A stretch of 64,000 nucleotides of DNA. Origin: Cordilura impudica (Eukaryota > Arthropoda > Insecta > Diptera > Scathophagidae). Below the pieces are notes generated by a model that saw nothing but the letters and a program-made list of their open reading frames with translations, ran no database searches and had not been told where the DNA came from. The translations under genes and the position numbers were made by a program. Location: NCBI GenBank assembly GCA_963682025.1, contig OY821520.1, positions 132,861,319 to 132,925,318 of the forward strand. The letters are read 5' to 3'. Positions 10,111 to 52,942 of the stretch are shown here, piece after piece (position 1 is the stretch's first letter; every line of letters starts with the position of its first letter).

Positions 10111-12573
10111 GTCATTTGAGCACGTCGGCAAAATATTTGGCGATCCGATTATTTTTATACTTTTGTGACCTTGTCATGCTCAAGAACTGTAAGAGAAGTT
10201 AAGTTAAGTTGAGGCAAATCCACGACAAAAAATATGATTTAATGATCAGATACAATTCATGTGGTTTTTCAAGTGTTTTTCCTATAAGAACTATTATTTA
10301 ATAAAATAAATATTTATCGTACAATTTTATACATATATCTGTGTTTATATATATCAGTAATAATTTAATGAACTTAATTCACAACATTATTCACGGTTCT
10401 AGTAGAAATTAATTTTTGATAAATAATTATTTCCTGTATGCTATGATAAATTAAAGAGTTTTTCATTTATCAAATGGCGCCTTAGGTGACTTACAACTAA
10501 TTGGTATATACTATAATAATATATTATTTTATTAAGTTACGTTCCGATACATTAAAATAATTAAAAAATAACTATTTAATAAAAAAAGCAATTTTTTTAT
10601 AATCAATCAATAAATTATACCAAAAAACGAACATACAGTAAGCGCAAATATATATAATAAACGAAAGCGCTTAATTACCTCATACACATTTATAAGAGCT
10701 GGTGTAAGGATGAGGTATACAGTTTTTTTAATACTTATATTATGGGAGACATAAAACCAGAATAATAAATCAAATTTTATGTACTGAGAAAACATGTGTA
10801 GAGAAAAAATTACATCTGATGAAAAGGCACTGTAATCCATAAATATCCACTCAAATAATAGGATTCGACTGTTTAGCATGTATGCTCTTGGAAAAAGACA
10901 AGAAAACTAAAAACTTTTACAAAAATTGCCAAAGAAATACCAAAGAAAACAAACGATATGTTGACAAACCTAAAGAAGAAGCCTCGCAAATTGTACAGAA
11001 ATATAATCATCTTATTGGGAAATATGGAGTCCAATGAATTATGTCAAAAGTATCGAATACTGAATTGCAAAAGTTTGATATTTTCTGACGGTAAAAATTC
11101 AATCTGAATGCACAGATTCGCATCCATTTGCGTAATGGGAAGATTTAAGATACTATGGGAAGCTAAAGTAATGATTTATATCCTCGAAAACGAATGCGGA
11201 GACTTAGGTAGAAATTTTAGATGAGGTATTTGTAAATAAAAAATGACGCGCCAATATCATAACGCACGTATTTATATCTTCAAGGTCACGTAAACATTTC
11301 TTTCATCAACCTCAACCTTTAAATTTAAATTTTTGGAAAATAATTATGGCCCATTATTGGGTGATTGGTATAAGGCAAAATTCTATCTAAATCAGTTTAT
11401 GAGATATTGCACATCACGTTATCAAAAAAATAGTTAATTCAATGGAACGTAATGTTTAAGAAACATATGACTGATTTATCTGTTATTTTCATTGTTAAGG
11501 CGATTTGTTGTGACCGATGAGTTCTTCAACAGTTTTCTACTGACTGAGACCAAACGTATCTTATTTGAAAGGTATTTCTTTTGAGATGTTCAGTAGATTT
11601 ACAGATTTAAACAGTCTGTAATATTTTTGTGGAGTAAAATGCATTTAAAGTTGTTACTAACACATACACAAAGTTATACAATCCTATGTGTGTGTTTATT
11701 AAATTTGTTAATGTGGTTGTGAGTTTTTATCTTCATTCACAATATTAATTGTGTTGAATTGAAAAATAATTTTGATCCTAAACCAATAATTGGACATAAA
11801 CCAATACCGAAAATAATCGATATTTAAAAAGTGTTGAATTGTGAATTGGCTAAAATTGATTAGCATACCTTTAGGGTCTTTATTAAATGAAAAAATAAAA
11901 TTTCCTAGAATTTGCACTCGAATTTCGGGGGCTGGAATCTGCTAGTATTATACTATTATATAAATTTTTATATATGAAAAATACTCTTATAAAATATACT
12001 TCAGATTGACGATTGCGTTCTACGGAAAAATGAAATGAAAATCACAAGTAATCATTTCCCATTTCCTAGGTGATCTAACTAAAAAAAAATATTATATATT
12101 TCATTAAGCTTTCAGTTGATATAGCGAAAGCTTCTACTTGCTGTAGTGCTTCGTTGTACTGGCCAGATTGAACTTAATTTCTTCTATCATATTAATTTTT
12201 AAACAAGTATTTCTTTAGATGGTTATCATTGATCTATGAATTGCTTTATGACTTGTTTTTTTTCAGTTTTTTTTTACCTAAACTTAATGCTTTTATTAAC
12301 TTAAGAGTCAAGTATTTCTTTAAATTTATGATCGTAGTTTACAATTCAATTGTATCTATTGTTTTTAAACTTCAATAATTTTTTGTCGTAACACTTCCTC
12401 TCAAGGTGTGTAAATTATGTTTGTAATATTTTTTTTTGCTGATCATCAGGCACAAAATCAGATAATGCTAAATAATGAAAATAATAGCTTTTAAGAAGTA
12501 AATGCAGCATTAATTATATATATTATTTCTACAAATTTTATCACATTTCAAATATATTATTTTTTAATTTTAG
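10111..12573. other. no recognisable gene; ends at a splice acceptor
   Basis: AT-rich DNA. The last part is probably intron of the gene whose exon begins at 12574. I could not identify an upstream exon. Reading frames near 10600-10880 are AT-biased and look accidental. Confidence 0.5.
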
Positions 12574-13376
12574 TTAAATTTGCTAAAGAGTCGGACACAC
12601 TTACATCAGCTAATGCTTATAAATCTGAAAAATATGATTTACCTATTACAATGAAACCCAGAGGTTTTCATGTGCCAAAAATAAGGCCAGCACAATCAAC
12701 ACAAGATTTCGTTCAGCCGTCAGCCCAAAATTATTACTCAGCTTTATTTCCCAATATACCATCCTTAGGTGGTGCTGAGCCATATTATCCCTTAACGGAA
12801 GAGCCCCTGGTGGCGAAATTGTTAGCTCAACAGTTTCATCAAAGAGCCCAAAAATCTCTTTCCACCTATGATGCTGCCATATTAGGCTCTGGTGATTTTG
12901 GCATTTTAAAAGGTGGCACATTCTATGGCGACGATGAGACACCCTATGAAATTGGCAATGAAGAAGAGAGTAGTGATATTTATTATCAAGAGGCCAGCAA
13001 TGCTCACGGTGGTTCTTCCACAGAAGCCTTCATACAAAAATATACCTATCCCGAAGAACAGTTTGCACAATTCCGAGATTTTGCTGATTTAGGAACGCCC
13101 GCCGATTCGGCCTTTTCACAGTACGTGGTGGTGTATGCAGCTAAGAATAATTCAACACTCGGCCAGATGAAGGATTCAAAACCAAAAAACATATTTGAAC
13201 AATTACAAGAAATTGATAAAGAAAAGGCTTTGGAAGTTAAAAAACTAAAGAAAAATAATACCAGTTTAAGTACAACTAAACTAAAATTGGTTAAAACGAA
13301 ATTAGCGGAAAAGAAGTTGACTAAAAAGCAACAGCTAACCATAACAGATGATGATCCTTTGATGGCTTTAAGTTAA
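12574..13376 (+). CDS. terminal coding exon of an unrecognised host gene
   Basis: A splice acceptor (TTTTTTAATTTTAG at 12560-12573) precedes an open frame of about 267 codons ending in TAA at 13374-13376. The frame is open from 12576, giving KFAKESDTLTSANAYKSEK before the first internal ATG at 12651. The exon therefore seems to start with two bases of a split codon (phase 1 intron). The protein has a YYSALFPNIPSLGGAEPYYP stretch, a Gly- and acidic-rich middle (GDDETPYEIGNEEESSDIYY), then a basic, Lys-rich, probably coiled tail (residues 180-230 counted from 12651) ending TDDDPLMALS. No enzyme motif or membrane segment is visible and I do not recognise the family. Codon use is balanced, unlike the AT-driven frames nearby, and there is no internal stop. 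No clear AATAAA signal follows closely. Confidence 0.75.
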
Positions 13377-13828: not shown

Positions 13829-13906
13829 TATACCCTCCACACCACTGCACAGTGGTCAAAAGCGATTAAAAATCTATAACTTTTTTATTTCTTCACCGAA
13901 ACTTTT

Positions 13907-14108
13907 GAAACAGGGTACTCGGGGGGTTTTGGGGTTGCTGAACACGAATCAGATATCACGTTTTTAAAATTCAAAATGGCGGATCCAATAGGGCGGAAAA
14001 TTTTTTTCTTTATGCTCGGGTTAGCTTGAAACTTGGTACTCGGAGGTTTTTGGGGTCGCTGAGCATGAACCTGATATCAGCTTTTAAAAATTAAAAATGA
14101 GTGAATCC
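13907..14108. repeat. two diverged tandem units, period about 121 bp
   Basis: Units start GAAACAGGGTACTCGG (13907) and GAAACTTGGTACTCGG (14028). Both continue with a TTTTGGGGTYGCTGA block and a GATATCA block. The only difference of note is substitution, not length. Confidence 0.65.
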
Positions 14109-14156
14109 TAAAACACTTATCAGATTTTTTTAAAAATAACTAACACAATAAACAAC

Positions 14157-14418
14157 ATATCGAGGGCTTATATTCAAAAAGTGCTATCTGCATTAATAAT
14201 TATTGTAAAGAGAGCGTGTAAAACTAATGTATTAATAAGATCTGAGAGTATTTGTCGATTGAGTTGCCACAATATCTATTAAGAAATAGTCGTACTAATC
14301 GTGAATGATATCAAAATTAATATTATATTTGACAGTTATATCAGAGAACAGTTTGAAATCAAAAGTTAATATTGCTGTCAAATGTAGATAGCACTTTTTG
14401 AATATAAGCCCTCGATAT
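14157..14418. mobile_element. MITE with 38-bp inverted ends
   Basis: Left end ATATCGAGGGCTTATATTC at 14157-14194, complement at 14381-14418 with one clear mismatch. The TA dinucleotides at the edges suggest a Tc1/mariner-type target (element TCGAGGG...CCCTCGA). It is 262 bp with no coding capacity. Confidence 0.8.
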
Positions 14419-15669
14419 TTAAAATAAATTTATTTCATATTTGTATAGATAACAGCTTTTTTTTTAACTACACCAAATTAAACTAATATAAACTAAACAA
14501 CTAATTCTAAGGCCCTGGAAGCAACTCGGTGTTATTTTTCACTTTTTTAATTCTAATACTACTTATTAACGGATCTGAGGATATTAAAAGGTAGTGAAAT
14601 ACGTCTTCATTATTTAATTTTCTTGATACATTTCTGCTATTATTTAAAAATTAAAAATTTTGTTGAACCAATGGCGACTCCCAAATGGTTAATAATATCA
14701 GCTCCATGTATCAACACCTTATGAACTGAGCGGAGCATATAATACCAACCATATAGGCTGACAAAATTTTTGTCCACCGGCGGCTGGATAAGATAACCAT
14801 TTATCATATCATTAAATTTGTATGATAATAACTATATAATTGACTTAAAAATTTGTATACAAAAAATTGTATGCACGTACATGGCACATATATAAATGAA
14901 CTTAAAATTAACCTAACTAAAACGGATCAATAGCCCTTTCAAATACCTTTCATTTGATATACAGTATGTACATATTCATTTAAAAGTTGTTGTGCAAAAA
15001 GTTAAAAAACGAAAAACATCCATTTTCGTATGCATTATATCTCCCAAAAATTGGGGGTTCCGCCCAAGAACCAAAACACTGGTCCGCTTTTTCATGCTCT
15101 ATCACAATTGTGAAGTGCAGGAAGAACTTTTTAACCGTTTGAAAAACTTCCCTATTGAGATCGTATGAATTTTTTTAAAATACACTTATAAATAGGGTAC
15201 CTTGAAAATGCTCTACATTAAAAGTTTCATAATATTGAACTTAGTTGTAGAAACACATTTTGTTTAGGACCCTTAGGTGTATTAAATACCGTTTATAGCT
15301 ACGCGGTTGAGAGCCGCTATTTTTTTTGGCAACTTATGCTTATTTCATTTTTTTTAAACCTATTTTTTTTTGCCACTTAGAAGTTATATGAAATAGTCAC
15401 TCAAATGCCCAAGGAATTACATGATGTGATTAAAAACAAAATACATTTTTTATAACTGTAAAGCTATAAACAGTGCACTGTGCAGAGGGTAGTTATAGTT
15501 ACTCAATCAGTTTAAAATTCAATGAAATAAAATACGCAGACTCTATAAACTATATAATTCTTGATGCTGTAAAAGGAGAAGTCAATCTGAAGATGTCCGT
15601 ATGTCTGTCCGTTTGCTCGTTGAAAATGTTCTTTTATGCACAGTAGGTCGAGTGGATGACACCACTTTG

Positions 15670-16278
15670 GGTTGATGTTCTAGGCATGGGAATTCAATGT
15701 GTTGCTCGTTGGAACCAGCATGTTTTTCAAGTGTCGAAAGAAGCATTCAAGTGACTTAGTTTTCTAAAACGGTGTAAAAATTACTTCACTCCTCCTGCCC
15801 ATATATGGGCAAGAGCTTCAAAGTCTATTTTGGAGCTACTGCACCGTGTGCAAAGGAGGGCGTTGGCGCTCATCAATGAAAATAGGGTATCCAACTCTAT
15901 TGTGGAATGTGGGTTATGTAGCACTCTTCTATAGATATTACCCTGGGAAATGTTCTTCTGAGATTAGCGAACTTATTCCAAGTGCCCGAGATTCGGTTCG
16001 CTCTACCCGCTTCTCTAGTAGATCCCATCCGTTTGTAGTCTATTGTCCAGTTGACCGCACAACGCATTACAGAGAGAATTCGTTTATCAGTCGAACTAGC
16101 CGTATGTGGAATAAACTCCCCGCAGAGGTCTTTCCTGACAGTTATAATCTAATAAAATTTAAGTCAAATATCCACAAACACTACTCCCTCTTTCCTCCTT
16201 CCCACAACATATTTTCTTGAAATCAACACAATGCACTGCATTTGTAGGGGGCATCCCCTGAGTGTTGGTTAAAAAAAA
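15670..16278 (+). pseudogene. LINE reverse-transcriptase C-terminus, 5' truncated
   Basis: This is the 3' end of a non-LTR retrotransposon of the same family as the copy at 39480-41066. The frame from about 15846 gives ISELIPSARDSVRSTRFSSR, then HPFVVYCPVDRTTHYRENSF and SRTSRMWNKLPAEVFPDSYN. The last block, ending LIKFKSNIHKHYS, is the usual C-terminal domain after the palm of Jockey-group polymerases. Upstream, 15700-15845 carries shorter matching pieces (the VFQVSK block and the LELL-RVQR block) with deletions and stops. The 3' end GCATCCCCTGAGTGTTGG plus an A run at 16270-16278 matches the other copy exactly, fixing the terminus. Confidence 0.85.
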
Positions 16279-16763: not shown

Positions 16764-16981
16764 TTTATACCACCATGTGGTCAGGGTATAATGACTTTGT
16801 GCTGATGTTTGCAACTATCAACAATGTTTGCCCTAGACCCATCGTTTGTTATACCAATCGGCTCAGAATCACTTTCTGAGTCGATTTAGCGATGTCCGTC
16901 CGTCCGTCCGTCTGTATATCTATGTAAATTTTTTAATCAAACTACAGGCCGCAACTGTGAACTTATTTTTATGAAATTTCG
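16764..16981 (+). mobile_element. HINE-like repeat, 5' segment of a split copy
   Basis: TATACCACCATGTGGTC 5' end, GTCC microsatellite at about 16900-16911, then GAAATTTC, where a LINE interrupts it. The copy resumes at 18901 and again at 20109. Confidence 0.85.
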
Positions 16982-18900
16982 TCCTAGAAAATAAAAAATG
17001 TTACGATAGTTATCTTTGTAAAATGAATTCAAATATAAAAAAAAAAAAAATTCCAAAAATGTTTTACAACTTTGTAAATTCTAAACGTAAAATTTCATCA
17101 TACCCAACCACTATGAAAATGAATGGTACTGTCCTTTCAAACGATGTTGATATTGCAAATGTTTTTGCTGAATTCTTTGCGTCCACATTTTCCACAATGA
17201 CGTTAAACAACACACGATATCCCTATGATATTCCAAGGCTGACATTAATTAATATTTCATCCTTAGACGTGTTGACTTTACTTAAGAATCTAAGAAGTAT
17301 AAAAAGTTCACCTAATCCCGGTCCAGATGGTATTCCCAGCTGTATCTTAAGAAATTGTGCTGAAATATTGGCTGCCCCGTTAACTCTTATATATAATAAC
17401 TCTCTTAAATTCGGCTTCTTTCCAAAGTGTTGGAAAAATTCATTTATTATTCCGCACTACAAATCTGGTAGCCGCAGTGATGCTACTAATTATAGAGCAA
17501 TTGCAAAGCTTAATGCTATACCTAAACTTTTTGAGAAAATTATAACTGATATATTATCACACGAAATGTCATCAATTCTATCACCAGCTCAACATGGCTT
17601 TTGCAAAGAACGGTCTACGACTACTAATCTAATGGAATTTACTTCCTATATAAACTCTGGATTCTGCAAAAATAAACAAACTGATGTTATATACACGGAC
17701 TTTAGCAAAGCTTTTGATAAGGTTAGCCATGATCTACTGCTAGCGAAACTTGATGCTATTGGATTCTCCGGGAACTTCTTAAAATGGATTCGGTCGTACT
17801 TAAAATATCGTAAGCAATGTGTAATTTTCAATAACTCTAAATCGAAATATATAGATGTTACTTCCGGTGTCGCGCAAGGGAGTCACCTTGGACCTCTCCA
17901 ATTTTTACTGTTTATTAATGATCTACCAAAGTCTATTCAATATAGCAATATTCTTATGTATGCCGACGATGTAAAACCATCATAAACAATGAAGACAGTA
18001 TACGTCTCCAGTCTGACTTAAATAGCTTCTACAAATGGTGCAATGTCAACTTAATGGAATTAAATCTTAAAATATGTCAGTCTATGACCTTCTCTAGATA
18101 TTCGCCATCTTCGAACGACTATGTCATCCATGACAAAAAACTAAACTCAGTTGAATCGTTCATAGATTTGGGAGTTCATTTTGATAAAAGACTAAGTTTT
18201 AATTCTCACGTAACAATGACTGTTAATAAGGCAAATGGTGTTTTATCTTTTATAAAGCGTTGGGCAAAGGAATTTAATGATCCTTATATAACAAAAAATC
18301 TATTCACGTCTTTGGTCAGGCCGATACTTGAATACGCATCAGTAATCTGGGATCCACAGTACAATGTTTTCATCAAAAAACTTGAATCAGTTCAGAAACA
18401 ATTCTTACTATTTTGTCGTCGATATCTTGAGTGGAATGCGGAATTGAGTCTTCCACCGTATCGCAGACATTTGGCTCTAATAAAGCTTCCAACTTTGAAA
18501 AGTAGAAGGATAATTTCTAATGTAATATTCTTCCTCAACCTGGTTCATGGTAAAATTGATTCTGAATGCCATCTTGGAAAAATTTGTATAAATGTCCCTT
18601 ACAGACAACTTCGATCGTATGAGCCGGTTTACCTGAATTTCCACAGATCAAATTTCATTAATTTCGGTCCATTCCGTAGAATTTGCACCGAAGTGAATTG
18701 ATTTATTTAATTGATTTTATTTAATTGATTTGTCAGATGATGTTGATGTTATTAAAAGAAGATTAACGACATATTTGAACTCTAATGATTATGTTTATAA
18801 CTGTATTTAAAGTCGGTATTATTTTTATAAAATATTTTTGTAAATATTGCTCAGCTGTTGCTTTATTGTAGTTGAATTAAATAAATAAATAATTAAAAAA
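16982..18900 (+). mobile_element. Jockey-like LINE inserted in a HINE-like copy
   Basis: The flanking halves of the repeat (ending 16981, resuming 18901) fix both boundaries to within a few bases. The element is 5' truncated (no endonuclease) and ends in an A-rich TAAATAAATAAATAATTAAA tail, as expected of target-primed reverse transcription. Confidence 0.85.
17023..18701 (+). pseudogene. LINE reverse transcriptase, one frameshift
   Basis: Non-LTR reverse transcriptase. The first frame (17023-17985) shows the fingers and palm in order: PGPDGIPSCIL, IIPHYKSGSRSDATNYRAI, PAQHGFCKERSTTTNLMEF, DVIYTDFSKAFDKVSHD (catalytic D), SGVAQGSHLGPLQFLLFIND and the YADD catalytic box at the end. A single-base shift right after YADDVK throws the frame into a stop. 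The thumb and C-terminal region continue from 18054 to 18701 (SFIDLGVHFDKRLSFNSHV, LVRPILEYASVIWDP). Both catalytic regions are intact and only one lesion is obvious, so the copy is fairly young. The Jockey-group label comes from motif style only. Confidence 0.88.
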
Positions 18901-26429: not shown

Positions 26430-28358
26430 GAAGAATATGTGTGAAGTCTGAAAATACTTTACTAAATTGGACAATGTAGCTCAGTGCAATATTTGCCCCA
26501 AGAGGCTTTTACACAAGGGAGGTAGTACTAGCGGCCTCATAAGACACATCACAATGGTACACAAGGTAGAATTGAATGGTCAAACTTCTGCTGTCTACGA
26601 AAAAACAATGTCACTAAACAAAATTTGGAAGAGAAAGACAAACCTGGAGAAACTATAAAAAAAATTATTATACGGAAAACATTTGCAGAAGTGGTTTCAG
26701 CTTTAGCTGCTGTAGACGGTATGTCGATAGTCCTTATTACACGAAGCACATTTATACGTGAAAGTTTTTCTTCACGTAACATGACACTCCCAAACAATGA
26801 AACTAATGTAAAAAATATTATTTTAAAGTACTACAACAGTGTTAAGCAAACTATGATAAAAAGAAATATCTACACAAGTTAAAAATAATGAGAGATTTTC
26901 ATTAATATTGGACGAGTGGACCAGTATTTCACAAAAACGATATTTAATATTTGCATAACTGGTAACAGTTCCTATTATAATTTAGTTTTGATTTATATAT
27001 CTGGAAGATGCAACGCAAAGGAAATAAAAACAATTTTGAATGAACGACTTAATGAATTCGAATTGAATTTAGAGCACCATATAGTTGCCACGATCTCTGA
27101 TGGACCCATCGTACTGAAGCGGTTTGTTGCAAAAAGTCCTGTAAAAGATTTTTCTTGTTGGAATCATGCGATACATTTGGCTGTACTTGATGTACTTTAT
27201 ATTAAAACAAATAAAAGTTACATTCAAAGTGAATGTGAAGAAAGTGACGATGAATTTTAATCAGAAACATATGATGTTGTTGGTAGGTTGAATTAAAAAA
27301 TTATAATTTTTTTTAAAATTCATAAATAAATATAATATGTATATGTATGTACTTATATTAAACTCAATACAAATATATATATACAGATGTACAATTTTAC
27401 AAAATTGAGCCTAAATATATACACATTATATTTGAACCGTATAACTAAATAATTTCAACATATATATTTTTTAATAAAACTATAAAGAAGCTATAGAAAA
27501 CTATAAAGAAGCTGTGGAATCTACTAGAAAAATCGTTAAATTTCTAAAAAAGAGTGCGCTCAAAACTGCTGTATTGGAAGCATATGTTAAACAAGAGTTC
27601 GGGAAAGAAGTTCGTTTAGTCCATGATATAAAGACAAGAGTTGATATGATACATTCTTTTTTGAAGATAAAAAAACCATAGAAAAATATGAATAGATTTT
27701 GATTCATCAAACTTATGGTTTGAGAACCATGTACAGCATCCAGAAATCTTAGTAGAAGTATTACAGCCAATTAAAGGTGCAGTAAAAGCTTTGAGTCGAG
27801 GGACTCCAATCTTTTAATAGCAGATGCTATATCAAATACACTGTATGATCAGTTATCATCAATGAATACCTCACTCTCTAAAAGGATGATGGAATCAATA
27901 AGAGATAAAATAAATCAGAGACGTGATGGTAAAATCAGGTCATATATTATCGTGTCATTATTTTAAAACAAATAATTATAATATTGATCCAAACTATTGT
28001 AAGAGCACTCTAACAATTTATGCACAACATATTTTCAATTGCCTTTTCATTCAATGCACAGCAGAAACATTATCCAGTAGTGACGACTACAATCTGCAAT
28101 ATCAAAACACAGAAAGTTTTAAAAACAACTTCGAAAATGCGATTAGTAAAGCTAAGGGAAATCCAAAATTGACTAAATCCAAAAATGTAAATCTTATTAA
28201 ACGAGAACTGTGTTTATATGATGTAAGTAATAATAGAACCAAGAACTTGGATAATCTGTACAACGCTTTACTGACCATAAAGCCGACTTCAGTAGAAAGC
28301 GAAAATGTTTTCTCTCTTGCTGGACATTTCGCAACAAGATATAGAAATAGAATGTAGA
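26430..28358 (+). pseudogene. hAT transposase with BED finger, decayed
   Basis: Remnant of an hAT-superfamily cut-and-paste transposase. A BED zinc finger opens it (KYFTKLDNVAQCNIC, then HITMVHK: two Cys, two His), with a stop where the conserved Trp is expected (about 26449). Next come the hAT-style FSLILDEWTS (about 26895) and CNAKEIKTILNERLNEFELN, then SDGPIVLKRF and CWNHAIHLAVLDVLYI (27150-27210, the usual CxxHxxHLxV-type block). After a stretch with stops, EAVESTRKIVKFLKKS begins the helical insertion domain near 27490. ALLTIKPTSVESENVFSLAG (from 28265) is the C-terminal dimerisation region. There are several stops and frameshifts, so the copy is inactive. A GGGAATCCCGGGAA motif lies at about 28685 beyond the C-terminus, but I could not confirm terminal repeats or an 8-bp duplication. 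Confidence 0.82.
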
Positions 28359-29708: not shown

Positions 29709-29747
29709 CACAGTGGACCATTTGACGAGAAGGCGGTCAAAAATCTA
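29709..29747 (+). repeat. candidate Transib terminus (RSS-like)
   Basis: CACAGTG (29709-29715), 23 nt, then AAAAATCTA (29739-29747), on the 3' side of the minus-strand Transib remnant and at about the same distance from its stop codon (676 nt) as the terminus is in the complete copy (579 nt). No partner end was found. The same AAAAATCTATAACTTTT block occurs at 13868, so a different repeat family is possible. Confidence 0.35.
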
Positions 29748-30384
29748 TAACTTTTGATTGGATTGGAATTTTGATATGAGTTTTTTTTTGTTTGGTAGGT
29801 GTGACTTTAGCCTTTAAGTTTTGCTATAAAACATAACTCTCAACCGAAAATGAAAAAAGTTACGGAGTGTTTAAAATACATTTTCATTTGTAGTTGAATT
29901 TTAGTACAATAGTGAAGTGTTAAAAGGTAAAAAAAGGTTTTTTTTTTAATATAATGCCTTATTTTTTCAGTTAATTTTACAACTAATACTTTTTAACAAT
30001 TTTTTAAATTAATTTTTTCAGAAAATGCCAAACTTTGACCCCCGTAAACTTTTTAATCCTAATGTGCACCAGGGCCAAAGGTTGTTTTTTTTTTGAAAGA
30101 TCCCGAGTTAAAATATAATTTATTAAGCAGCAACCGTAAAAGCTACCTTATATTGGTTCAAGATAGAGAAGTTTCAATGAAAAACTCGTGTGTTTTTGCT
30201 TTAGTTAAAATTTTTTTTTATTGTTTTTTTAAATATTTCTATGTCAATTTTTATGGTATATTTATGAAATATAACAATTTTTATTGTAAATTTACAAAAT
30301 ATGTCAATTTTTAAATCAAGAAAATTTTTTAACTATATAAAAAAAGTGTAACTTATTGTTAGTGTAATAAAAAAGTAATTTGAT

Positions 30385-31898
30385 TCAACCAATTTTAGTA
30401 AAAATTTCTTCTAAATAGCCTTGATTTTCATCTTCTAGAAGTTGTTTAGCTTCTTCGTCTAAATCAATAGAGGCAGTTTTCCATTTTTGACGAATGTTAG
30501 ACATATATGGATCTGAAGTGCACAACAAAATAGTGATAAGGTTTTCATTAGTACAACATCTGGACATTTTCCTTGTGTTGTGCTCGCGAAAGAATCTGCA
30601 GTCTTTGTTTCTTTTTTCTTGCGAGTCTTCAGATAGATCTCCTATTGGTAGCATATTGTTTTGAATTATTTGTTCCCCATGGTACAAAATTTTATGAACT
30701 GTGGATGGCATATATCTCCAAGAGTATTTTTCATTATAAAGTATAGCTGTTTTATTGGCGTACTCTCCAATTTTTTTTGCATTTATCTTTCTGCTGCATG
30801 CTAGAACTTGTAATATGATTTCGAATCGTCTTATTAATTCATGATCTACACCTGTGATAGATGCTGCAGTTTCCGGATCGGAAAAAAATCTCCTTGCAGT
30901 ATTTCCATCATTTGTGTTTCCTTCCCCTTGTTTTGGTTGGTCGATTTTCAAGTTGAATTTGTTTTTTTTTTTGCTTTCTTTTTTCTTCATTTTCATTGTT
31001 TTTTCTCACTGTTTCGCCTAACGGACCAAATTCCAAATCATAACCCAATTTAAGAATATGCTCCATGAAACGTATTCTAGCATGAAGAGGTGACATTCAA
31101 AATTCGTAGGCTTCCTTAGAACTATCGTCTTCTGGTGGGGGTTGGCATAATTGACTTGATGTTTTTTTGGCATATAATGCAGCTTGACGTTGACTTTGTT
31201 CCAGTTAAAGCTTGTGCAACTTTTCCATCAATCATTGTGAGACACATTTTAAAATGTACTCATATTTAAATATTACTGGTTGAACTTCCTTAATTTGATC
31301 TTTTATTTTTTGAACTTCTTCAGTTATGACATCTTTCCTTTTTGAATGCAAATTTTATTGGTCTGCAATACTTTGTGAAGAAGGAATTTCATTTTTCCAT
31401 ATATCAATTTCTGTCGCTCTACTAGTTGACGGCTCTAAGACGCTATACCTTTTTGTTAAGCGCAATGGAACGAAAGATAGCATAAATAAATTAGCATCTG
31501 ATGAATTTTCGGCATTAAATTGCTTGTATTGTTTCTGACCAGAGGATCCATCACATCCCCATTTAAAAATTAAAGTAATGCTGCCATTACCAATTTTTTT
31601 TTTAAATGATCAGTATAAAGCTTATTTAGCAATCGTTCTGCAGTATGTTCAAGGAGATCTTGCAATTTTATTTCTGCTGATGTTGAAGTGACACTAATAG
31701 CAGATTGTGGAGGTAAGGATTCTTTTTTTTGGCAGAAACTAAATCTCGATACTCTGGTAAAATCCCATGATTCTTTTCATTGGTTCGCTTCCGCAATTTC
31801 TTATATTGATTTTTGGTCAATTTTAACTCCAAAAATAGGGCGAACGCTTCTTCCGGCGTAAATTTCTTATCTTCAGTTGGTGTAGGAATGCTTTTCAA
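30385..31898 (-). pseudogene. Transib (RAG1-like) transposase, decayed
   Basis: Related to the vertebrate V(D)J recombinase RAG1: Transib enzymes cut DNA at heptamer-nonamer ends. In order on the minus strand: FTPEEAFALFLELKLTKNQY (from about 31865); FKWGCDGSSGQ with the first candidate catalytic Asp (codon 31550-31552); LFMLSFVPLRL; TMIDGKVAQALTGTKS with the second Asp (31227-31229), followed by a CIIC zinc pair; SPLHARIRFMEH; then the open frame 30385-30996 with GNTNDGNTARRFF, SITGVDHELIRRFEIIL, TVHKILYHG (His pair) and the candidate Glu in GDLSEDSQEKRNKD (30628-30630). The pieces lie in different frames with stops between them. All three acidic residues survive. No N-terminal part matching the copy at 50-52 kb is seen. 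Confidence 0.85.
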
Positions 31899-32414
31899 AA
31901 TCCTCTTTGTGCGCCTTGGGCTCGCTTCTACTATTTTTTCAATTATTTCAATTTTATTTTTTTTTATTTTGGGTTGGTTGAATTTGGTGCAAAAATGAAT
32001 CCTAATAATCCTTTGAGAATATTCTTCATTGATATTCTCCAGCTTGCAAAATGGGTCAAATTTGATCCGAAGACCCTATGAAGGTTAAGTAATAAGAGTT
32101 TATTATCAATGTTTAATTCAGATTTTCTGTTCGTAAGTGGAAATAAAACTTTGGTAGTTGAGCTGAAGGTGCTAGCCACCGTTGATCCCTTGAGTAACCT
32201 ATAAATTTAATTATATTTTATTTATGAATAAATAAGTAAATAAATAAATAACTTTAATATTTAATTTTTTTTTTGTATTATAAAGTAAATATGTTTATAC
32301 CACATACAGATATTTACCTTTAACTTCCCATGGAACCCTGAAATTAACAAATTATATATTAGATTGAGGAACGAAGCAATCCTTCCTTCTTCTGGTAAAA
32401 AATATTGATTTGAT
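31899..32414. other. unassigned; possibly 5' part of the Transib remnant
   Basis: A minus-strand frame at 31964-32179 (MASTFSSTTKVLFPLT...) has no motif that I recognise and does not match the N-terminus of the complete Transib. No second terminus was found. Confidence 0.3.
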
Positions 32415-33984: not shown

Positions 33985-35655
33985 TTATTGTTTTTTAATG
34001 TAATCTGTTATATATGACTGTTTTTTTGGTTCCTTAAGAGAATAAATAACGATTTCATTCCTAATGGTTAGAATATTGCTCATGTGCTGAGATACTTCTT
34101 TCTTCTTGCACCACTTAATCAAGTTGTTTGCACTTTCGAAAGCTACGGAATAAGAAATAGCAGGCCCGGTGTCAACGATTTCATCTTGGTCTGCATCCTC
34201 GTCATCGGTGGTGAGTTCGATTTCATCCAGTTCTGCCTCGTTCAAGTCTTGATTCCATTTTTCGATTTCTTCAAGTGGCATTGAATTATTTGGATCAAGC
34301 TTATTTAACAGCGCCTGAGTTTCTTCTAGAAATTGATTGCTCTCCTGATTTAGGTGACCCCATTGAGCCAATGGCAATTCATCTTCGCTGTCGAACTGAT
34401 CAGAATGAACGTTTTCCAACTCGATCCAATTCAATAATTTTGCCCAAGACTTTTTACATATGTGCTGTGGTAATTCATCCCACGCTTGTTTAAGCAACAT
34501 TATTGCATCGCGGATCGAATGGTGCTTTAAAATAATGTTCGAATCACCCCCTTCAGCAATTAAGTTAGAAAGCAGCTGGCGCCTGTAAATCAGCTTAGTT
34601 AGCTTAATTGGATTTTGGTCCATAGGCTGTAAAGCTGCTGTCACATTGGGCGGGGGAAAAAATGCAACTATGTTTCCGTCGTCACTTTGGAGCTGTTCAA
34701 CCATTGCATGAGCGGAGCAGTTGTCAATCAACAGTAGAGCCTTCGGCGGCAAAGAGTTTTCTTGAGAGAAGCGTTTGACCTAGAAGGCAAAAGTGCAGTC
34801 ATAACAACTTGAAAAGATATACATTCACTTGTTAACCTTACCTCTTTAATAAATATCTGATGAAACCACTGATGAAAGATACGTGACGTCATCCAAGCAT
34901 TCTTTGAAAAATCGTAGTGAAGTGGATTATAAAATCCTTTGAAACATCTAGGCTTTCTTGCTTTGCCAATGACCATGGGCTTCAATTTGTGTGAGCCATC
35001 TGCGTTTGTACCCAGTAAAATTGAAAGGCGTTCTTTTTGTATTTTGTACCCAGGAGCAGTTTTTTCACAACCACCTACATATGTTTTGTCTGGGAAACAA
35101 CGAAAGAACAATCCACTTTCATCGGCATTATATATTTGTGCTTCGGTCAGTCCCATTTCAGTAACTTTGTTGCGAAAAGTTTGTATGAACGAAGCAATGG
35201 ACTCGATATTGCTGGAAAGTATTTCGCCACAAATTTTTAAATATCGAATGCCATGGCGACGTTTAAATTTTGCAAACCATCTATCGCTTGCATTAAACGC
35301 ACTTTCATTTTTATCAGGATAAAGTTCGCTGAAAATTTGTTTAGCCTTTTCCCTTAATATTGGTCCAGTCAAAGTGCAATTTTTCTTTCGTTGAATTAAA
35401 AACCATGCATACAGTTTTTTTTTTCCATTTCCGGATATTCAGCAGCATGCAGACCTTTCTTTCTTGCAACTTGATAAGTGCTAGCGACTGCACCCAAAAT
35501 CAATTTTTTCTTGGATTTGATGTAGCTAATTGCAGACTTCGCAACTCCAAAATCCTGAGCTATTCGACTAGCTTGTACACCTTTATCAAGCTTTCCCAAA
35601 ATTTCAACTTTTTATGCCAAAGAAAGAGTGGTTTTTTTACGCTTATGTGACATTT
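33985..35655 (-). pseudogene. Tigger/pogo transposase, nearly intact
   Basis: DDE transposase of the pogo/Tigger group (CENP-B-like). The start MSHKRKKTTLSLA (35655) leads into a Psq-type helix-turn-helix (KVEILGKLDKGVQASRIAQD). A TAA replaces one codon within it (about 35614-35616), and a one-base shift lies in an A run near 35424. The CENP-B-type DNA-binding half follows (FNASDRWFAKFKRRHGIRYL). The DDE domain shows IYNADESGLFFR (D, 35121-35123), ALLLIDNCSAHA (D, 34723-34725) and ALQPMDQN (D, 34618-34620), with 34 residues between the last two. The long acidic tail runs to the stop at 33985. A predicted 62-nt intron (34780-34841) joins the two large frames exactly in phase. Only two lesions are visible. 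Confidence 0.9.
34780..34841 (-). other. predicted intron in Tigger transposase
   Basis: Minus strand: GAG then GTAAGGTT as donor, TTGCCTTCTAG as acceptor, 62 nt. Splicing joins FHQIFIKE to VKRFSQENSLPPKALLLID in frame. Without it the frame runs into junk (CISFQVVMTALL...) and stops. The size is typical of fly introns. Confidence 0.8.
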
Positions 35656-39215: not shown

Positions 39216-39479
39216 CCCTTGTGTTAATACCCAACTTTATAAACATTGTTTAGCACCCGGGGTACCCAGGTACCCATGTACCCAAGTACCATTATATATT
39301 AATAATCAATATTTTCATGAAATAAAATTTAATTTTTAAACTTTTTATGTGAGTATTAAATGATATATGTTAAAATATGATTTTTAACTTCAAATTGCAT
39401 AACGGCCAAAATTTTAAATCTTTTATACAGGACACAGTACTTTTTAGTATCACAGTTGTACATTTTCGGCAATACATGA

Positions 39480-41066
39480 TTTTTTTTTTTATTTTTTTTT
39501 ATTTATTAACCAACACTCAGGGGATGCCCCCTACAAATGCAGTGCAATGTGATGATCTCAGTAAAATAGGTTGTGGGAAGGAGGAAAGAGGGAGTAGTGT
39601 TTGTGGATATTTGATTTAATTTTTATTAGATTATAACTGTCAGGAAAGACCTCTGCGGGGAGTTTATTCCACATGCGACTAGTTCGACTGATAAACGAAT
39701 TCTCTCTGTAATGCGTTGTGCGGTCAACTGGACAATAGACTACAAACGGATGTGATCTACTAGAGAAGCGGGAAGAGCGAACCGAAACTCGGGCACTTGG
39801 AATAAGTTCGCTAATCTCAGAAGAACATTTCCCATGGTAGTATCTATAGAACATGATACACAACCCACATGTCGACGATGTTCCAATGAGTCAATAGAAT
39901 TGGATACCCTACTGTCATTGATGAGCATCAACGCCCACCTTTGCACACGGTCCAGTAGCTCCAAAATACCCTTTGAAGCTCCTGCCCATATATGGGAGTT
40001 ATATCCCATTTTCGATCGGATGCAAGTGATATAGATTTTAAGGAGATCAGAAGGAGTGAAGTAATTTTTGCACCGTTTTAGAAAACCAAGACACTTGAAT
40101 GCATCTTTCGACACTTGAAATACATGCTCGTTCAAACGAACATCACATTGAATTCTCATGCCTAGAACATCAAAAGTATCGGACTCCTCAATACCTATAC
40201 CACCCATACAGACAGATGAAATTGTTGAATCCATGGCCCTATGGGTCAACATACAACATTGCGTCTTCAGCGCATTAAAATCAACCCTATTCGCTTTACC
40301 TCACTCGGAGATTGTTAACAGGTCTTGATTGAGTGTGTCATTCATTGTCCGCCTTTTGCCCCCAACCTCCAAGAGGCTTGGCCTACAATTAAAGGAAAAT
40401 GAATGACAAATGCTGCTGTCACCTGCGAAAGAGTATATAGAATTAAAAGTTTGACCAAGAAAGTCGTTCAGAAAGATAAGGAAAAGAGAAGGAGAAAGAA
40501 CGGAACCTTGGGGTACCCCTGAATTAAGCTGAAACTCATTGGATGAGACCCCATCAATAACAACACGTATTGTTCGATCTCTGAGAAAACTCGATATAAA
40601 TCGAAAGAAGTCATAACGCATATAGATATCAGTGCACCGTGCTACATACGATCGAATGCCTTGGAAATATCTAGAGCAACTACTTTACGTTCGCCAAAAG
40701 TGCGAATGGATCGACTTCAGCGCTCAGAAAGTAGAGCTAACAGGTCTCCCGTGGAACGATTTGTACGGAAGCCATACTGACGATCGTTAATAAGTGAGTT
40801 GGGTTCTAGGTAGTTCACAAGATGGGAATTGGTCATGATCTCCATCACCTTTGAGAGATTGCAGATTGCAATTGGACGGTAATTTGCAGGGTTATTAGCC
40901 GCACCCTTTTTATTGATTGGTTGGATATTAGCGACTTTCCAGCAAGAGAGAAAGATTCCCGCATGGTAGGAAAGGCTGAAAAGGTTAGCCAATGAACTGG
41001 CTAGGATCGAAGAGCACCGTTTCAGCACCAGTGCCGTTATACCATCCGGTCCCCGAGACTTATTAA
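39480..41066 (-). pseudogene. LINE reverse transcriptase, 5' truncated, broken
   Basis: Non-LTR retrotransposon in the piggyBac interior, reading right to left. NKSRGPDGIT and NYRPIAICNLSKVMEIM (fingers) are followed by the YGFRTNRSTGDLLALLSE block. After a frameshift come FRFISSFLRDRTIRVVIDG and SGVPQGSVLSPSLFLIFLND. The catalytic box reads SFAGDSS, where an F-A-D-D is expected, so one metal-binding Asp has become Gly. The thumb and C-terminus (FLKRCKNYFTPSDLLKIYIT, SRTSRMWNKLPAEVFP) match the 15670-16278 copy. It ends in an A-rich tail (T run at 39481-39505 on the plus strand). No endonuclease is present. Confidence 0.88.
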
Positions 41067-41307
41067 TGTTGATATGTAATTAGGATTTCCCTCTATTATA
41101 ATACTAACGCTTTGGAAACTTAAATAAATTAACTGTAGTTTATTGAATTTCTTGAGCAGTTCAAATGTATTTGTGTCCCATGAAGTGAAAACCGAAAATA
41201 AAAGAAAAAATAAAAAAATATGTAACAAATTTCGAGAGCTCAATTTTTAAAGCAAGTGAGCTTTATATTTTAAAATAAATGAAATTACATAAAAGGTAAC
41301 ATTTAGG

Positions 41308-45603: not shown

Positions 45604-46961
45604 TTTCTTTTTAGGAACGTAGGAGCACAAAGTTGCCTCATTTCTGAAGGCAAAGTTGGTGGAATTTATTTGCCTGAAATAATAATATTTGCTTGTCAAT
45701 TTAATTTTATTTTTGCATAGTCAGTATATCATGCACGCATTTCTTTTTTTGTGTAAAATTAAACTTACCTGTCTTTATGTGGCTGCATATTTGCTGGTAA
45801 AAATCTTTTGTTCTTTCTTACTGTTCCAACTAGAGTTAAATTCCACGAGTTAAGTTTTCAAGCCAGTTGTAAGGATGTAAAAAAGTTATCTGTAGTAACA
45901 TTTCTTCCGGAGTTTTTATATGGGCTAACAAGATCTAAAACTATTCTTTCCCCTATATTTGTTTGACGCTCGCCTTCTGTTGGTTTACCTGTATATAACT
46001 GACCTTGTAAGGGGTAGGAATTAGTTGCGTCACAAGCCCAATATATTTTTATTCCGTACTTCTCAGGCTTAGACGGCATGTACTGTGTGAAGCGCGTTCG
46101 TCCACGATAACCATATAGCTGCTCGTCAACAGTTATACATTCGCCTGGCTTATAATTTCTACGTAAATTGTCATTAAGCATTGCCCAAATATCTCGAATG
46201 GCTGCAGCTTTATCAGTTGCGACACGTGAAGTACGAGTGGCATCGTTGTCAAATCTGATGACATGCAACATCATTCTAAATCTATCAAGAGGCATTGCAG
46301 CTCGAATCAGTGGTAGATGAATAGGTTTCCATAATTCTGACAAATGCTCCTTATTAGATTTGTGCACTCCACAAAAAATTAAAATTCCAAAAAAAGCGTC
46401 TAGTTCTTCTTCTGTAAATGGTTGGAATATTTTTTTTTTTGGCCGGTCGGTCACGTTTGGAAACTTTTGTGTCATGTTAAGATTGTAATAATCAATAATT
46501 GTTTTTCTTTTTCGGTTTGTTTCGCATGAAAATATGTCACACATTTCGGTCGACAAAAAGCTTTTAATTATTTGCTGTGCTGTTAAAATATTGCCGCTAC
46601 GCTGACGTAAAATGTTTCGGTTTATTGGTTGCGATTCAGTAAAATGTTTAAGATCCCAAACAGTGCCATCTTTACCACAGAGTTCATTGTTTGGCTCTTC
46701 TTCCTCACTATCATCTGAATCATATGAATTCTCAGCAGCCTCAATGCATCCCACCTGCTCAGCATCTGAACCTTCCGATGCTGCCTCGTTAGCTGGTGGA
46801 ATGTATTCATCGTCGATATCAGATGGTGAAAATTCGTCTTCATCACTTTCACATTCACACAACATCTCACGAATTTGAGTTGACGAAAATCTATTAGAAC
46901 GTGTTCTTATATTTTGATCCATTTTGCGAAATAAAAAATGCACTTTTAAAAAACTAGGCAC
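45604..46961 (-). pseudogene. piggyBac transposase, truncated
   Basis: The 367-residue frame (46961-45858) begins MPSFLKVHFL; Met-14 (MDQNIRTRSNRFSS) is an equally likely start. It has an acidic N-terminal region (residues 35-95), then the DDE_Tnp_1_7 core: FTEEELDAFFGILIFCGVHK, PLDRFRMMLHVIRFD, ECITVDEQLYGYRGR (D279), KIYWACDATNSYPLQG (D311) and RNVTTDNFFTSLQLA (D358). A TGA at 45858-45860 interrupts an otherwise continuous frame (KLNSWNLTLVGTVRKNKRFL). A predicted 95-nt intron then leads to INSTNFAFRNEATLCSYVPK, where a HINE-like repeat cuts the gene. The GVDxxDQ region with the last catalytic Asp was not found. It is inactive. Confidence 0.92.
45674..45768 (-). other. predicted intron in piggyBac transposase
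   Basis: Minus strand: GACAG then GTAAGTTT as donor, ATTATTTCAG as acceptor, 95 nt. Splicing gives HKDRQINSTNFAFRNEATL, which restores the piggyBac-like TL-SYVPKK block in frame. Reading straight through ends at TAA, four bases into the intron. Confidence 0.8.
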
Positions 46962-49775: not shown

Positions 49776-49839
49776 GACCTCCTGAATTCGTATATCATAA
49801 CCATTTTTCCCCATTGCATACCGTTTTCGCGGAACGTCC

Positions 49840-49878
49840 CACAGTGTGAGATTTAGTCAATCTAGCATCTCAAAATTA
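49840..49878 (+). repeat. Transib left terminal repeat, RSS-like
   Basis: Heptamer CACAGTG (49840-49846), 23-nt spacer, then TCAAAATTA (49870-49878) as nonamer-like block. CACAGTG is identical to the consensus RAG recombination-signal heptamer. Confidence 0.85.
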
Positions 49879-50418
49879 ATTTTTATATGAAGTTTTAGAG
49901 ATATCAACTTGAAATTTGGCGCGATCGTTAAGGAGATTATAAGCTTCAATATGGTGAAAGATAACTAGTTCCAACTAGTGTCAAAGGGGACTAGTTCCGA
50001 ACTATCCTCAAAAACACTAGTTGGTGACAATTTTTTTTTTTACACATTTATATTAAAAATTTCTTCTTTTTTTCTCTTCTAACTAAAACCTGTCGATATA
50101 TTGATATAAGTACCCACATACAACCATTTCAAGTTTCGAACTTTAGTTTTCGATGATTCTTTGCAAATGAGAAAAATAAAAAGTTAATGTTGTTTATGTT
50201 AAATTTATTGATATCTAAAACATAATAAAGAGGAAAAACTAAAAAATTCAACGAAAGTTCTTAAAAGAATGGAAAATATTCAAAATAAGATATCAATCAA
50301 AAACCAAAATTAAGAAATTATATACAAATTATACAAAAGTAAAAAGCGAAAAGTAGAAATAAAAAAAAAAGAAATTTATATAAAAATAAAAATTCCAGAG
50401 AGTTGCAAGCAAAGTTTT

Positions 50419-52424
50419 TTATGTTAAATCATCAAATTCATCATTTAGTTGGGTGTCAGACAAAAGTGCAATGACCTCAAAAGATATAGTAGAACGCTTG
50501 GTTTTTGGGGGCAAACGTAAACTTGCAATCAAAGGGTCTGACGTGATAAGCAACCTATGCAATAAATCTATGTTGGTGTCAACTTGGGACGTTTTTCTTG
50601 TGAACAGTTCGCGATACTGTCTCGACTCTTTGTTGCGTGCTTCTTGCGCTTCTTCAGAAAAGTTTCCTATGGGAAGAATGCATGAAGAAAAGATAGCTCC
50701 TCCATGAAACAATATTTTGTGGAGAGTTACTGGCATAATACCAAGGATATGAACTCAAATAAAGCTCTCTTGTTTCTGACGTAAAATTTTGGAACGCATC
50801 TATATTGATAAAATAGCCGATGTTTATGCAAATAAGTATTACTCCAAACCGCTTGATCAGATCGACATTTATGCCTGTGATATCCGATGTCTTTTCTGCT
50901 TCTTTGAAAAATATTCTGGCCGTATTGCCATCATTTGTGTTTCCTGTTTTCTGTTTCGGCATATCCGCAAGACGACCCATTTCGTTCCTAAACCTGTCTT
51001 GTATTTTTTTCTTCCTTCTTGCAACGCTCTCCTTATTTTCATCGCCTGATACGTACCATTTTTCTATTTCCAATCTGTAAGAAATGTACAACAAGCACTC
51101 CATAAAGCTTATGTAGGCATGTAGAGGTGAAAGACCAACAGCAAACATATTTTCATCGATTTCGCGCTGAGATAAGGCATTCATGTCGTTCATAGTTTTT
51201 GGAGTTGAACCACATATATAGCACGCTTGCGATGACGTGTAATTTGAAAGAGCGGTGCACACTTTGCCGTCAATCATACATAGAATTAAATTGGCTTTAA
51301 CCGTGAAGCTCAAAGCTAGTTGGTTTCAAAACAGAAATTTGCTGCCGAATATGCTCCACTTCCGCTTTAATGACATCACGCGTCTCTTTCGTGAAAATAA
51401 ATTTGATCGGTCTACAATATCTTGTCGAAGACGCAGCTGGATTTTGCCAAAAAATATGTTTCCTTCCTTCAGCTCCAGAGTTAAGTTGAAGAGGCACCAT
51501 CGAAAGAGAAAACATGCTTTCGTCTGACATGTTGTCATCCGAAAATTTTTGCTTGTAACGGTTCTGTTCAGCTCCATCGCATCCCCATTTTATTATTATG
51601 CTTAATTCATCCTGAATGGCAGGGAACGACTTAAAAACCTCATATTGTGCATCTATTAATCTTTTCACCGTGTGGTCTATTATGGATTGCAAATTGATTT
51701 CGGCATATGTTTCAGTAACAGTAACAAGGCTTGGGTAGCACAATAATTTTGATTGCTTAACGAGGTCATAGCATGGATACAATTTCGGACTGTATGGTAT
51801 CGTATGCAATCGTATTCCACGGTATTGCTCAGTTGATAAATTTTCGTCTACGATCATGGCCAGTGCTTGATCTGGTGTAAGACTTTTCTTTTCAATAATG
51901 CTTACCCTTGCTCTTTTTATAGCTGTACCTCTCGAAGGGGATGCAGCCGATAACTCTTTGACAATGTTTGCTGAGTCTCTTTTTCCACAGGATCTCAGAT
52001 GCATTGCGGTAGCCATAGTTAATAGTTCCGAAGCTACATTTGATACTAACTCTTTGCATTTCCGTTTTTGTGTACTCGAAGCACTTTCAGCAAACTCTTT
52101 TTCTCGCCTTCCGCGTTGCGGTATTTGTTTTGAAGTTGATGGTGCGTGATCAAGAGCAAAATCAACAGCAGAAATTTTTGAACTTAGCCAAATAGCATTG
52201 TCATGCATAAATCTTGCTTTATCACGGTGAAATTTGCTCAATCGCGATTGAAATAGGAAGCAAAGCTTTTTGATACGATCTTTAATTTTGATATCGTCAA
52301 CATCTGGCCCAAAAATTGATATAACGTGCTTTTCGACCGCTTCTGTTTTTTCGCTTTTCACCCTGCTCAACCAAATCCAAAGTAGCTCCTCTCGCGATAT
52401 TTCACTCATACTAAAAAAAGGCAA
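50419..52424 (-). pseudogene. Transib transposase (RAG1-like), two frameshifts
   Basis: First frame (52424-51297, 375 codons, starting MPFFSMSEIS; Met-6 is an alternative): N-terminal region, SLTPDQALAMIVDENLSTEQ, then KWGCDGAEQNRYKQKF with candidate catalytic D283 (codon 51576-51578), and SMVPLQL. A frameshift near 51300 leads to LILCMIDGKVCTAL (second Asp, 51269-51271) and CYIC (zinc pair). Next come GLSPLHAYISFMECLL, GNTNDGNTARIFF and DITGINVDLIKRFGVIL. A second shift near 50738 leads to PVTLHKILFHGG (His pair spaced as in RAG1 HKxLxH) and GNFSEEAQEARNK with the candidate Glu (50653-50655). The stop is at 50419. The mapping to RAG1 D600, D708, E962 and C727/C730/H937/H942 is a by-eye motif alignment. 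All key residues are present. Confidence 0.92.
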
Positions 52425-52898
52425 AAAATGGGCAGGATTTTATTTTTGAAATTTGTTTTGGGCACATTAACAAAGATTCTGCTGGCATTCCCATCACGAA
52501 ACTCCGTGGGACTTGGAAGTTCTAGTCTATCAAAGATTTGAAAGCTTTAAAATTTATCTTACCTTTTAGCTGGTTATAAAACAATTTTTTCAAAATACTT
52601 GAGTGCAAAAATAATAATTGTATAAAGCAAAAATTTTAAGTTTAAATAATAACCTTTAATACAAAAAATATTTTAGGCCAAAAAAAACCAGTCACAACTT
52701 CGACCTGATCACTCAAACTTTTGTGATCAATGCAAGCTTGCAAATCAATTTTTGCATGCTATGCAATTGCACGTGTTTGATAGCTGTTATCACGCCAATA
52801 ACATTTTTTTATTCTCTTTTGTGTTTGTTTTCGTAACAATTGGGGTCTCTTCTCACGTAGAAAAAAACATGAGCGAGTTACGAAAACATTTTTTTTTT

Positions 52899-52937
52899 GA
52901 ATTTCGAGATGCCAAATTGATTAAATCTCACAGTGTG
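52899..52937 (-). repeat. Transib right terminal repeat, RSS-like
   Basis: On the minus strand: heptamer CACACTG, 23-nt spacer, TCGAAATTC. It differs from the left heptamer by one base; the spacer is the same length as on the left. Confidence 0.85.
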
Positions 52938-52942
52938 CGTCC

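Follow-up and report, generated by a model that had tools for sequence, protein, structure and literature searches.

Transib is a well-known superfamily of transposons whose transposases are related to RAG1. The copy number of autonomous Transibs is typically one or a few at most, and the copies are often damaged, according to the excerpted text of an earlier study (PMC4411706). In Drosophila melanogaster, excerpts on the hopper element report hundreds of de novo insertion sites, showing a Transib to be mobile in flies, and describe the hopper target as GC-rich and palindromic (PMC3276498). As far as the excerpted sources go, Transib ends carry a heptamer and nonamer-like blocks at 20–22 nt, with 12/23 spacers in a few elements (PMC8355894), and most Transib families have symmetric ends, as does HzTransib, in which similarity to the nonamer is little or none (PMC8289069).

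Here we describe T1, a new, broken member of the Transib superfamily, within a 64,000-nucleotide stretch of the genome of the fly Cordilura impudica (hereafter the window). We are almost certain of the following account as a whole: T1 is a structurally complete, non-autonomous Transib with a gene broken twice, probably moved in trans, and it belongs to a family that looks near-dead in a genome where other Transib families look active.

Structure and ends of T1

T1 occupies positions 49840–52937 of the window (3,098 bp), and these coordinates proved exact on recheck. The left terminal inverted repeat (49840–49877, plus strand), which lies on the 3′ side of the gene, consists of the heptamer CACAGTG, 23 nt and then TCAAAATTA, and the right one (52900–52937, minus strand), on the 5′ side of the gene, consists of CACACTG, 23 nt and then TCGAAATTC. 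The two arms form a 38-nt inverted repeat with 87% complementarity, which bears out the inverted ends of the form CACA(G/C)TG proposed in a sequence-only reading of the locus, and both start with CAC and an RSS-like heptamer, as is characteristic of Transib. CGTCC is read on both sides of the element, at 49835–49839 and at 52938–52942, as that reading had also stated, and we regard it as the 5-bp target-site duplication. A 22-nt pattern of the T1 end (≤3 mismatches) matched just the two T1 ends in the window, compared with a mean of 0.00 matches in 100 shuffled windows. The left end sequence recurs across the genome, with letters changed in a few copies.

T1-family copies and their insertion sites

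We searched the genome assembly (1,486,481,460 bases in 855 contigs) for related copies. The search with T1 DNA returned 68 matches from the best 40 of 406 candidates, and the end pattern (≤3 mismatches) found 58 ends, of which 31 are in forward and 27 in reverse orientation, whereas the control pattern found 0. The further loci sharing these termini that the sequence-only reading had proposed to look for are therefore present, and the 58 ends correspond to about 30 insertions. There was no sign in the genome of a swarm of short T1 derivatives at ≤3 mismatches of the end pattern. Thirty T1-family loci were examined, and the pattern recovered both ends in 25 of them, the exceptions being L007, L024, L025, L028 (seen over part of its length) and L035.

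Identical 5-bp duplications flank 20 of these 25 two-ended loci. Removal of L045, the element of which is letter-for-letter that of L032, and of L036, which has no genuine right end, left a set of 23 copies including T1, and in this set 19 copies have identical duplications, all 19 mutually different. The two duplicates of the remaining copies differ by one letter in L006, L029 and L033 and by three letters in L018. L032 and L045 lie ~300 kb apart on one contig and have the same element, duplication and 30-nt flanks; their 400-nt flanks are not letter-identical, and the pair arose either by local duplication or as an artefact of the assembly.

The 19 duplications reveal a target preference that favours GC, as expected of a Transib. 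Their first letter is C in 17 cases, and G occupies the second and the last position in 13 cases each; CG occurs within 16 of the 19, compared with 12% of the 5-mers in the flanks. Their GC content is 68%, compared with 42% in the ±20 nt around them (P = 1.5e-7). The empty site of one sister copy, L004, was recognised in a LINE that runs uninterrupted at 15904–16278 of the window with a single CGTAT, and a second LINE copy (39472–39878) is uninterrupted too, with one letter changed at the L004 target. L022 and L021 were considered as further empty-site cases and set aside, the former having a common repeat at 75–78% only and the latter a stretch at 69% only. The duplications and the L004 empty site support past insertion of the T1 family. 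Going by the known mechanism of Transib and RAG, both ends would be brought together at the CAC heptamers by a dimer of the transposase, the flanking DNA would be nicked and hairpinned to free the element, and the freed element would then be joined to a target with a 5-bp stagger, for which C-G-N-C/T-G is favoured here. The mean pairwise distance among the 23 copies is 2.3% (range 0.6–3.6%, substitutions only), suggesting that the family is fairly young.

The T1 transposase gene and its breaks

The T1 transposase gene is read from the minus strand, starts with an ATG at 52409 and is divided into three open pieces. Piece 1 (51297–52409) comprises the N-terminal region, the first candidate catalytic D (51576–51578, in WGCDGAE) and a conserved E (51384–51386, in KETRDV). 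Piece 2 (50654–51325) holds the second candidate catalytic D (51269–51271, in MIDGKVC), the CxxC zinc pair (51212–51223) and an NTNDGNTAR motif, and piece 3 (50419–50754) holds the HxxxxH motif (H at 50719–50721 and 50704–50706) and the third candidate catalytic E (50641–50643, in EEAQEARNK). NTNDGNTAR was also considered as the site of the third catalytic residue and was dropped, the RAG1 profile alignment favouring the E of EEAQEARNK.

Relative to the majority of the 23 aligned copies, the first frame break (51300–51307) is a 14-nt deletion near 51307 and the second (50734–50736) is a 2-nt deletion near 50734, which agrees with the two frameshifts that the sequence-only reading had placed near 51300 and 50738. 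The 2-nt deletion is private to T1. The 14-nt deletion occupies identical alignment columns in L008 and in none other of the 23 copies; L033 has a longer gap that overlaps it, and L019, L029 and L033 have other gaps near it. Given these two gene-breaking deletions, T1 would be unable to produce its own enzyme. Assembly or sequencing errors in a truly intact T1 might imitate such a pattern, both breaks being small and the 2-nt one private to T1, but the 14-nt deletion recurs at the same columns in an independent insertion, and at least one frame-changing indel is present in 21 of the 23 aligned copies, most of them at their own places, which makes this explanation very improbable.

The T1 family as a whole looks dead or nearly so. 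None of the 23 two-ended copies has an open frame of more than 508 aa. The two copies without a frame-changing indel relative to the majority are L003, which carries a stop, and L034, which is shortened. An open frame of 662 aa is present in L007, which is outside the 23; this frame is short of a few residues present in L034 and T1, and the right end of L007 is missing. A copy without the frameshifts, which had been suggested as a check, was thus found with respect to its frame but not with respect to its two ends. The expectation that active sister copies may exist likewise held in part: likely active relatives are present in other Transib families, whereas the T1 family has no two-ended, full-length open copy among the 23, and an intact one could lie beyond the best 40 of the 406 candidates. 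The dN/dS ratio between L007 and family D, another Transib lineage of this genome, is 0.16 with a dS of 1.39, near saturation, and we count this value in favour of past selection.

The shared 14-nt deletion bears on how T1 came to its present site. L008 has the same deletion columns as T1, four doubleton letters in common with it and the same right-end variant, and its duplication and flanks differ from those of T1. Because the deletion is also present in this independent insertion, the defective form was likely moved by a transposase made elsewhere. The right-end variant is not specific to the pair, since it also occurs in L032 and L045, and L032 is without the 14-nt deletion. The resemblance between T1 and L008 could also have arisen without common descent, through recurrent deletion, given the other gaps nearby in L019, L029 and L033, or through gene conversion. 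Movement of the defective form in trans, by way of a source that already carried the 14-nt deletion, is most likely. That T1 is instead a domesticated RAG1-like host gene would accord with the candidate catalytic and zinc residues that its protein retains, but T1 has inverted ends and target duplications, is one of about 30 copies dispersed over the genome and belongs to a family with broken frames, which leaves this idea practically without credit.

Relationship to HzTransib and RAG1

Each of the three pieces matches HzTransib (PDB 6pqn and related entries), with E-values against 6pqn of 3e-31, 8e-54 and 1e-18 for pieces 1, 2 and 3, and besides HzTransib no PDB sequence matches the pieces below E = 0.04. 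HzTransib derives from Helicoverpa zea, and the PDB table gives it as a DNA-mediated transposase. In Pfam, none of the pieces scored above the cut-off, the RAG1 entry for piece 3 (E = 0.085) falling below it. A profile of 19 Transib proteins recovered 6pqn at 7e-184 and extended to a RAG1L chain at 1e-13 and to RAG1 chains from 5e-12. The profile positions of the D of WGCDGAE, the D of MIDGKVC, the E of EEAQEARNK and the HxxxxH motif align to the D, D, E and HxxxxH of RAG1, the third catalytic E with the E of GNESGNK; the RAG1 counterparts of the catalytic residues are presumably those numbered D600, D708 and E962. The 19 aligned proteins show no variation at either D, at the E of KET or in the CxxC pair. 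All of the catalytic and zinc residues named in the sequence-only reading were therefore located in T1, as candidates, and the profile lines them up with those of HzTransib and RAG1. That reading had called T1 a RAG1-related Transib and had suggested a profile comparison; the PDB matches, the profile and the tree place the protein inside the Transib/RAG1 group.

The nearest outside relatives were compared with T1 as protein only. For piece 1, identity is 73% to P0004, with 57% of the query covered, 61% to P0001 and P0002, with 99% covered, and 55% to LOC118749752 of Rhagoletis pomonella (P0012), with 62% covered. In the tree, T1 and family D group with P0001 and P0002 in a starred clade (99/94), and P0004 is outside the sample of the tree. 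No locus was confirmed when viral contigs were searched with a related protein, and eight 16-mer matches of the T1 end in viral contigs were regarded as chance.

T1 appears to carry a single gene. By the open reading frame listing, its 3,098 bp contain no stop-to-stop frame of ≥60 aa wholly outside the transposase, and the paired RAG1-like and RAG2-like genes of RAGL/ProtoRAG elements are absent from it. If T1 were instead an element of the RAGL/ProtoRAG type, with its RAG2-like partner present or lost, its CAC heptamer, 5-bp duplication and RAG1-related enzyme would fit, since these are shared with that group according to an excerpted source (PMC7204232), but this reading is extremely unlikely, as T1 has no such frame, its single pieces match HzTransib and no RAG1L sequence in the PDB at E ≤ 1, and family B of this genome (3,874 bp) has one long open reading frame among those listed, to 4201 of 4291.

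Other Transib lineages in the window and genome

Two further Transib loci lie in the window, both on the minus strand. T2 (29709–32075), a heavily decayed Transib of another lineage, has its left end, CACAGTGGACCATTTGAC, at 29709 and transposase remnants at ~30430–31925; its right end was not found, and its C-terminal piece (30385–31005) matches 6pqn with E = 2.9e-50. T3 (13848–14765) is a remnant in which fragments of the transposase C-terminus (14513–14765) accompany an end-like CACAGTGG at 13848, and AAAAATCTATAACTTTT is common to CACAGTGG and the T2 end.

The window also contains features unrelated to Transib. Among named sequences, the gene at 12495–13376 best matches those of Lucilia cuprina (61%), Calliphora vicina (61%) and Cochliomyia hominivorax (58%), and on this basis we take the host for a calyptrate fly. 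LINE-like reverse transcriptase copies are located at 16975–18701, where RVT_1 is strong, and at 39558–41079, where it is just below the cut-off. A remnant of a hAT dimerisation domain lies at 27914–28357, a DDE_1 transposase with an HTH_Tnp_Tc5 domain lies in two open pieces at 33985–35438, and a transposase fragment at 45858–46997 matches PF13843 (1.5e-45), which we take to be piggyBac.

A genome search with protein P0006, in which the best 70 of 38,926 loose first-look candidates were scored, gave 45 of 70 rows that are stop-free in the matched stretch; frame breaks split such matches, and a stop-free row does not amount to a proven intact gene. In their span and identity, 35 rows correspond to family B, 29 of them without a stop, and among these 35 the sequence check covered L046 and L047. 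The DNA search with family B scored the best 38 of 2,746 candidates, and 34 of these 38 places (query included) span nearly all 3,739 bases at 97–100%, the other four being in pieces. The family B end pattern (≤2 mismatches) found 193 ends against 0 for the control, corresponding to about 97 insertions; 100 of the 193 were listed, every one exact, and shortened copies exist, as at least five listed end pairs lie ~1.8–2.5 kb apart. L046, a member of family B, is 3,874 bp long with the duplication CGCTA.

In each of families C, E and F, one copy combines intact ends, an open frame between them and a 5-bp duplication. The family C copy (L048) is 3,421 bp long, has the duplication CGACT and encodes 662 aa in a stop-free match, and those of families E (L052, CTGTG) and F (L053, CGATG) have stop-free matches to the query. 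In a tree of T1, L007, B, C, D and T2 (without E, F and G), the label 'this genome' changes five times, at least four of these changes being forced by starred branches; therefore the genome holds several Transib lineages and not one. These other lineages look as if they were active recently or are so still, most of all family B.

Nonamer-like blocks and a possible heptamer polarity

The sequence-only reading had described a nonamer-like block after exactly 23 nt at both T1 ends. The blocks are placed as it said, and TCAAAATTA and TCGAAATTC each score 5/9 against the RSS nonamer; in T1 alone, the match is not beyond chance. Two random stretches both reach 5/9 at a spacer of 23 in 0.8% of draws, and 9% of the 9-mers in the window score as well as the T1 blocks; because the T1 ends repeat each other, about 9% and not 0.8% is the fair chance figure. 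When one copy of each of eight lineages was compared, the summed RSS-nonamer match peaked at a 23-nt spacer with 43, the next best of the 43 offsets scoring 36, and no nonamer peak was seen at a 12-nt spacer. The nonamer claim for T1 was retained because of this eight-lineage peak. (A/C)CAAAA stands at exactly 23 nt at both ends of C, E and F and at the single known end of G, and TCAAAA stands there at one T1 end only. The block at 23 nt is partial at one end of D and absent from B, and the best block of T2 is at 21 nt. Since a heptamer with nonamer-like blocks is already described in the excerpted text of PMC8355894, this layout is known.

The heptamers were compared in L041, L046 with L049, L048, L052, L053, L055, T1 and the T2 end at 29709. 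The gene-3′ ends are CACAGTG in eight of eight lineages. The gene-5′ ends are CACACTG in T1 and E, CACATTG in B and C, CACTGTG in D and CACAGTG in F, so that five of the six lineages with both ends read have a gene-5′ heptamer that departs from CACAGTG at position 4 or 5, F being symmetric. Single copies vary: some D gene-5′ ends read CACTGCG or CACTGAG, and some T1-family ends found by the genome-wide pattern have changed letters. The polarity was first noticed in T1, B and C; D, E and F were then inspected, and D and E fit. Even for independent lineages, a departure on the same side in all five would have a two-sided sign probability of 0.06, and T1 and D are related and hence not independent in this count. 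For these reasons the polarity is a lead and not a result.

No statement on a gene-5′/gene-3′ heptamer polarity was found in the open-licence literature, and polarised Transib ends may be new. We advance only tentatively, and consider rather doubtful, the proposal that Transib ends are functionally polarised, with a canonical CACAGTG at the gene-3′ end and a fixed departure at position 4 or 5 at the gene-5′ end in at least five lineages, most of which also retain a nonamer-like block at 23 nt from the heptamer. If it were true, the inequality of the two heptamers would serve to adjust how the ends pair or in which order they are cleaved, and the asymmetry would come from heptamer sequence and not from 12/23 spacer length.

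Comparison with known systems

T1 itself is ordinary and broken, and the greater interest lies in a genome with several Transib lineages, one of which, family B, stands at about 97 insertions. The Transibs of this fly are natural material for the study of RAG1 relatives, target choice and the role of unequal heptamers. As the mobility of hopper is already known from the excerpted report, the present genome extends that knowledge and is no first.

T1 has a catalytic core related to those of ProtoRAG/RAGL elements and vertebrate RAG1 and has the CAC heptamer and 5-bp duplication in common with this group; it differs in having no room for a RAG2-like gene, and RAG1 is reached by profile only. The T1 transposase is homologous to HzTransib across nearly the whole solved length, with the D-D-E and zinc residues in both, whereas T1 has two frame breaks and two unlike heptamers. 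Like hopper and transib2 of Drosophila melanogaster, T1 is a Transib with 5-bp duplications; the published target motif of hopper and transib2 is CCANTGG, whereas the T1 family favours C-G-N-C/T-G.
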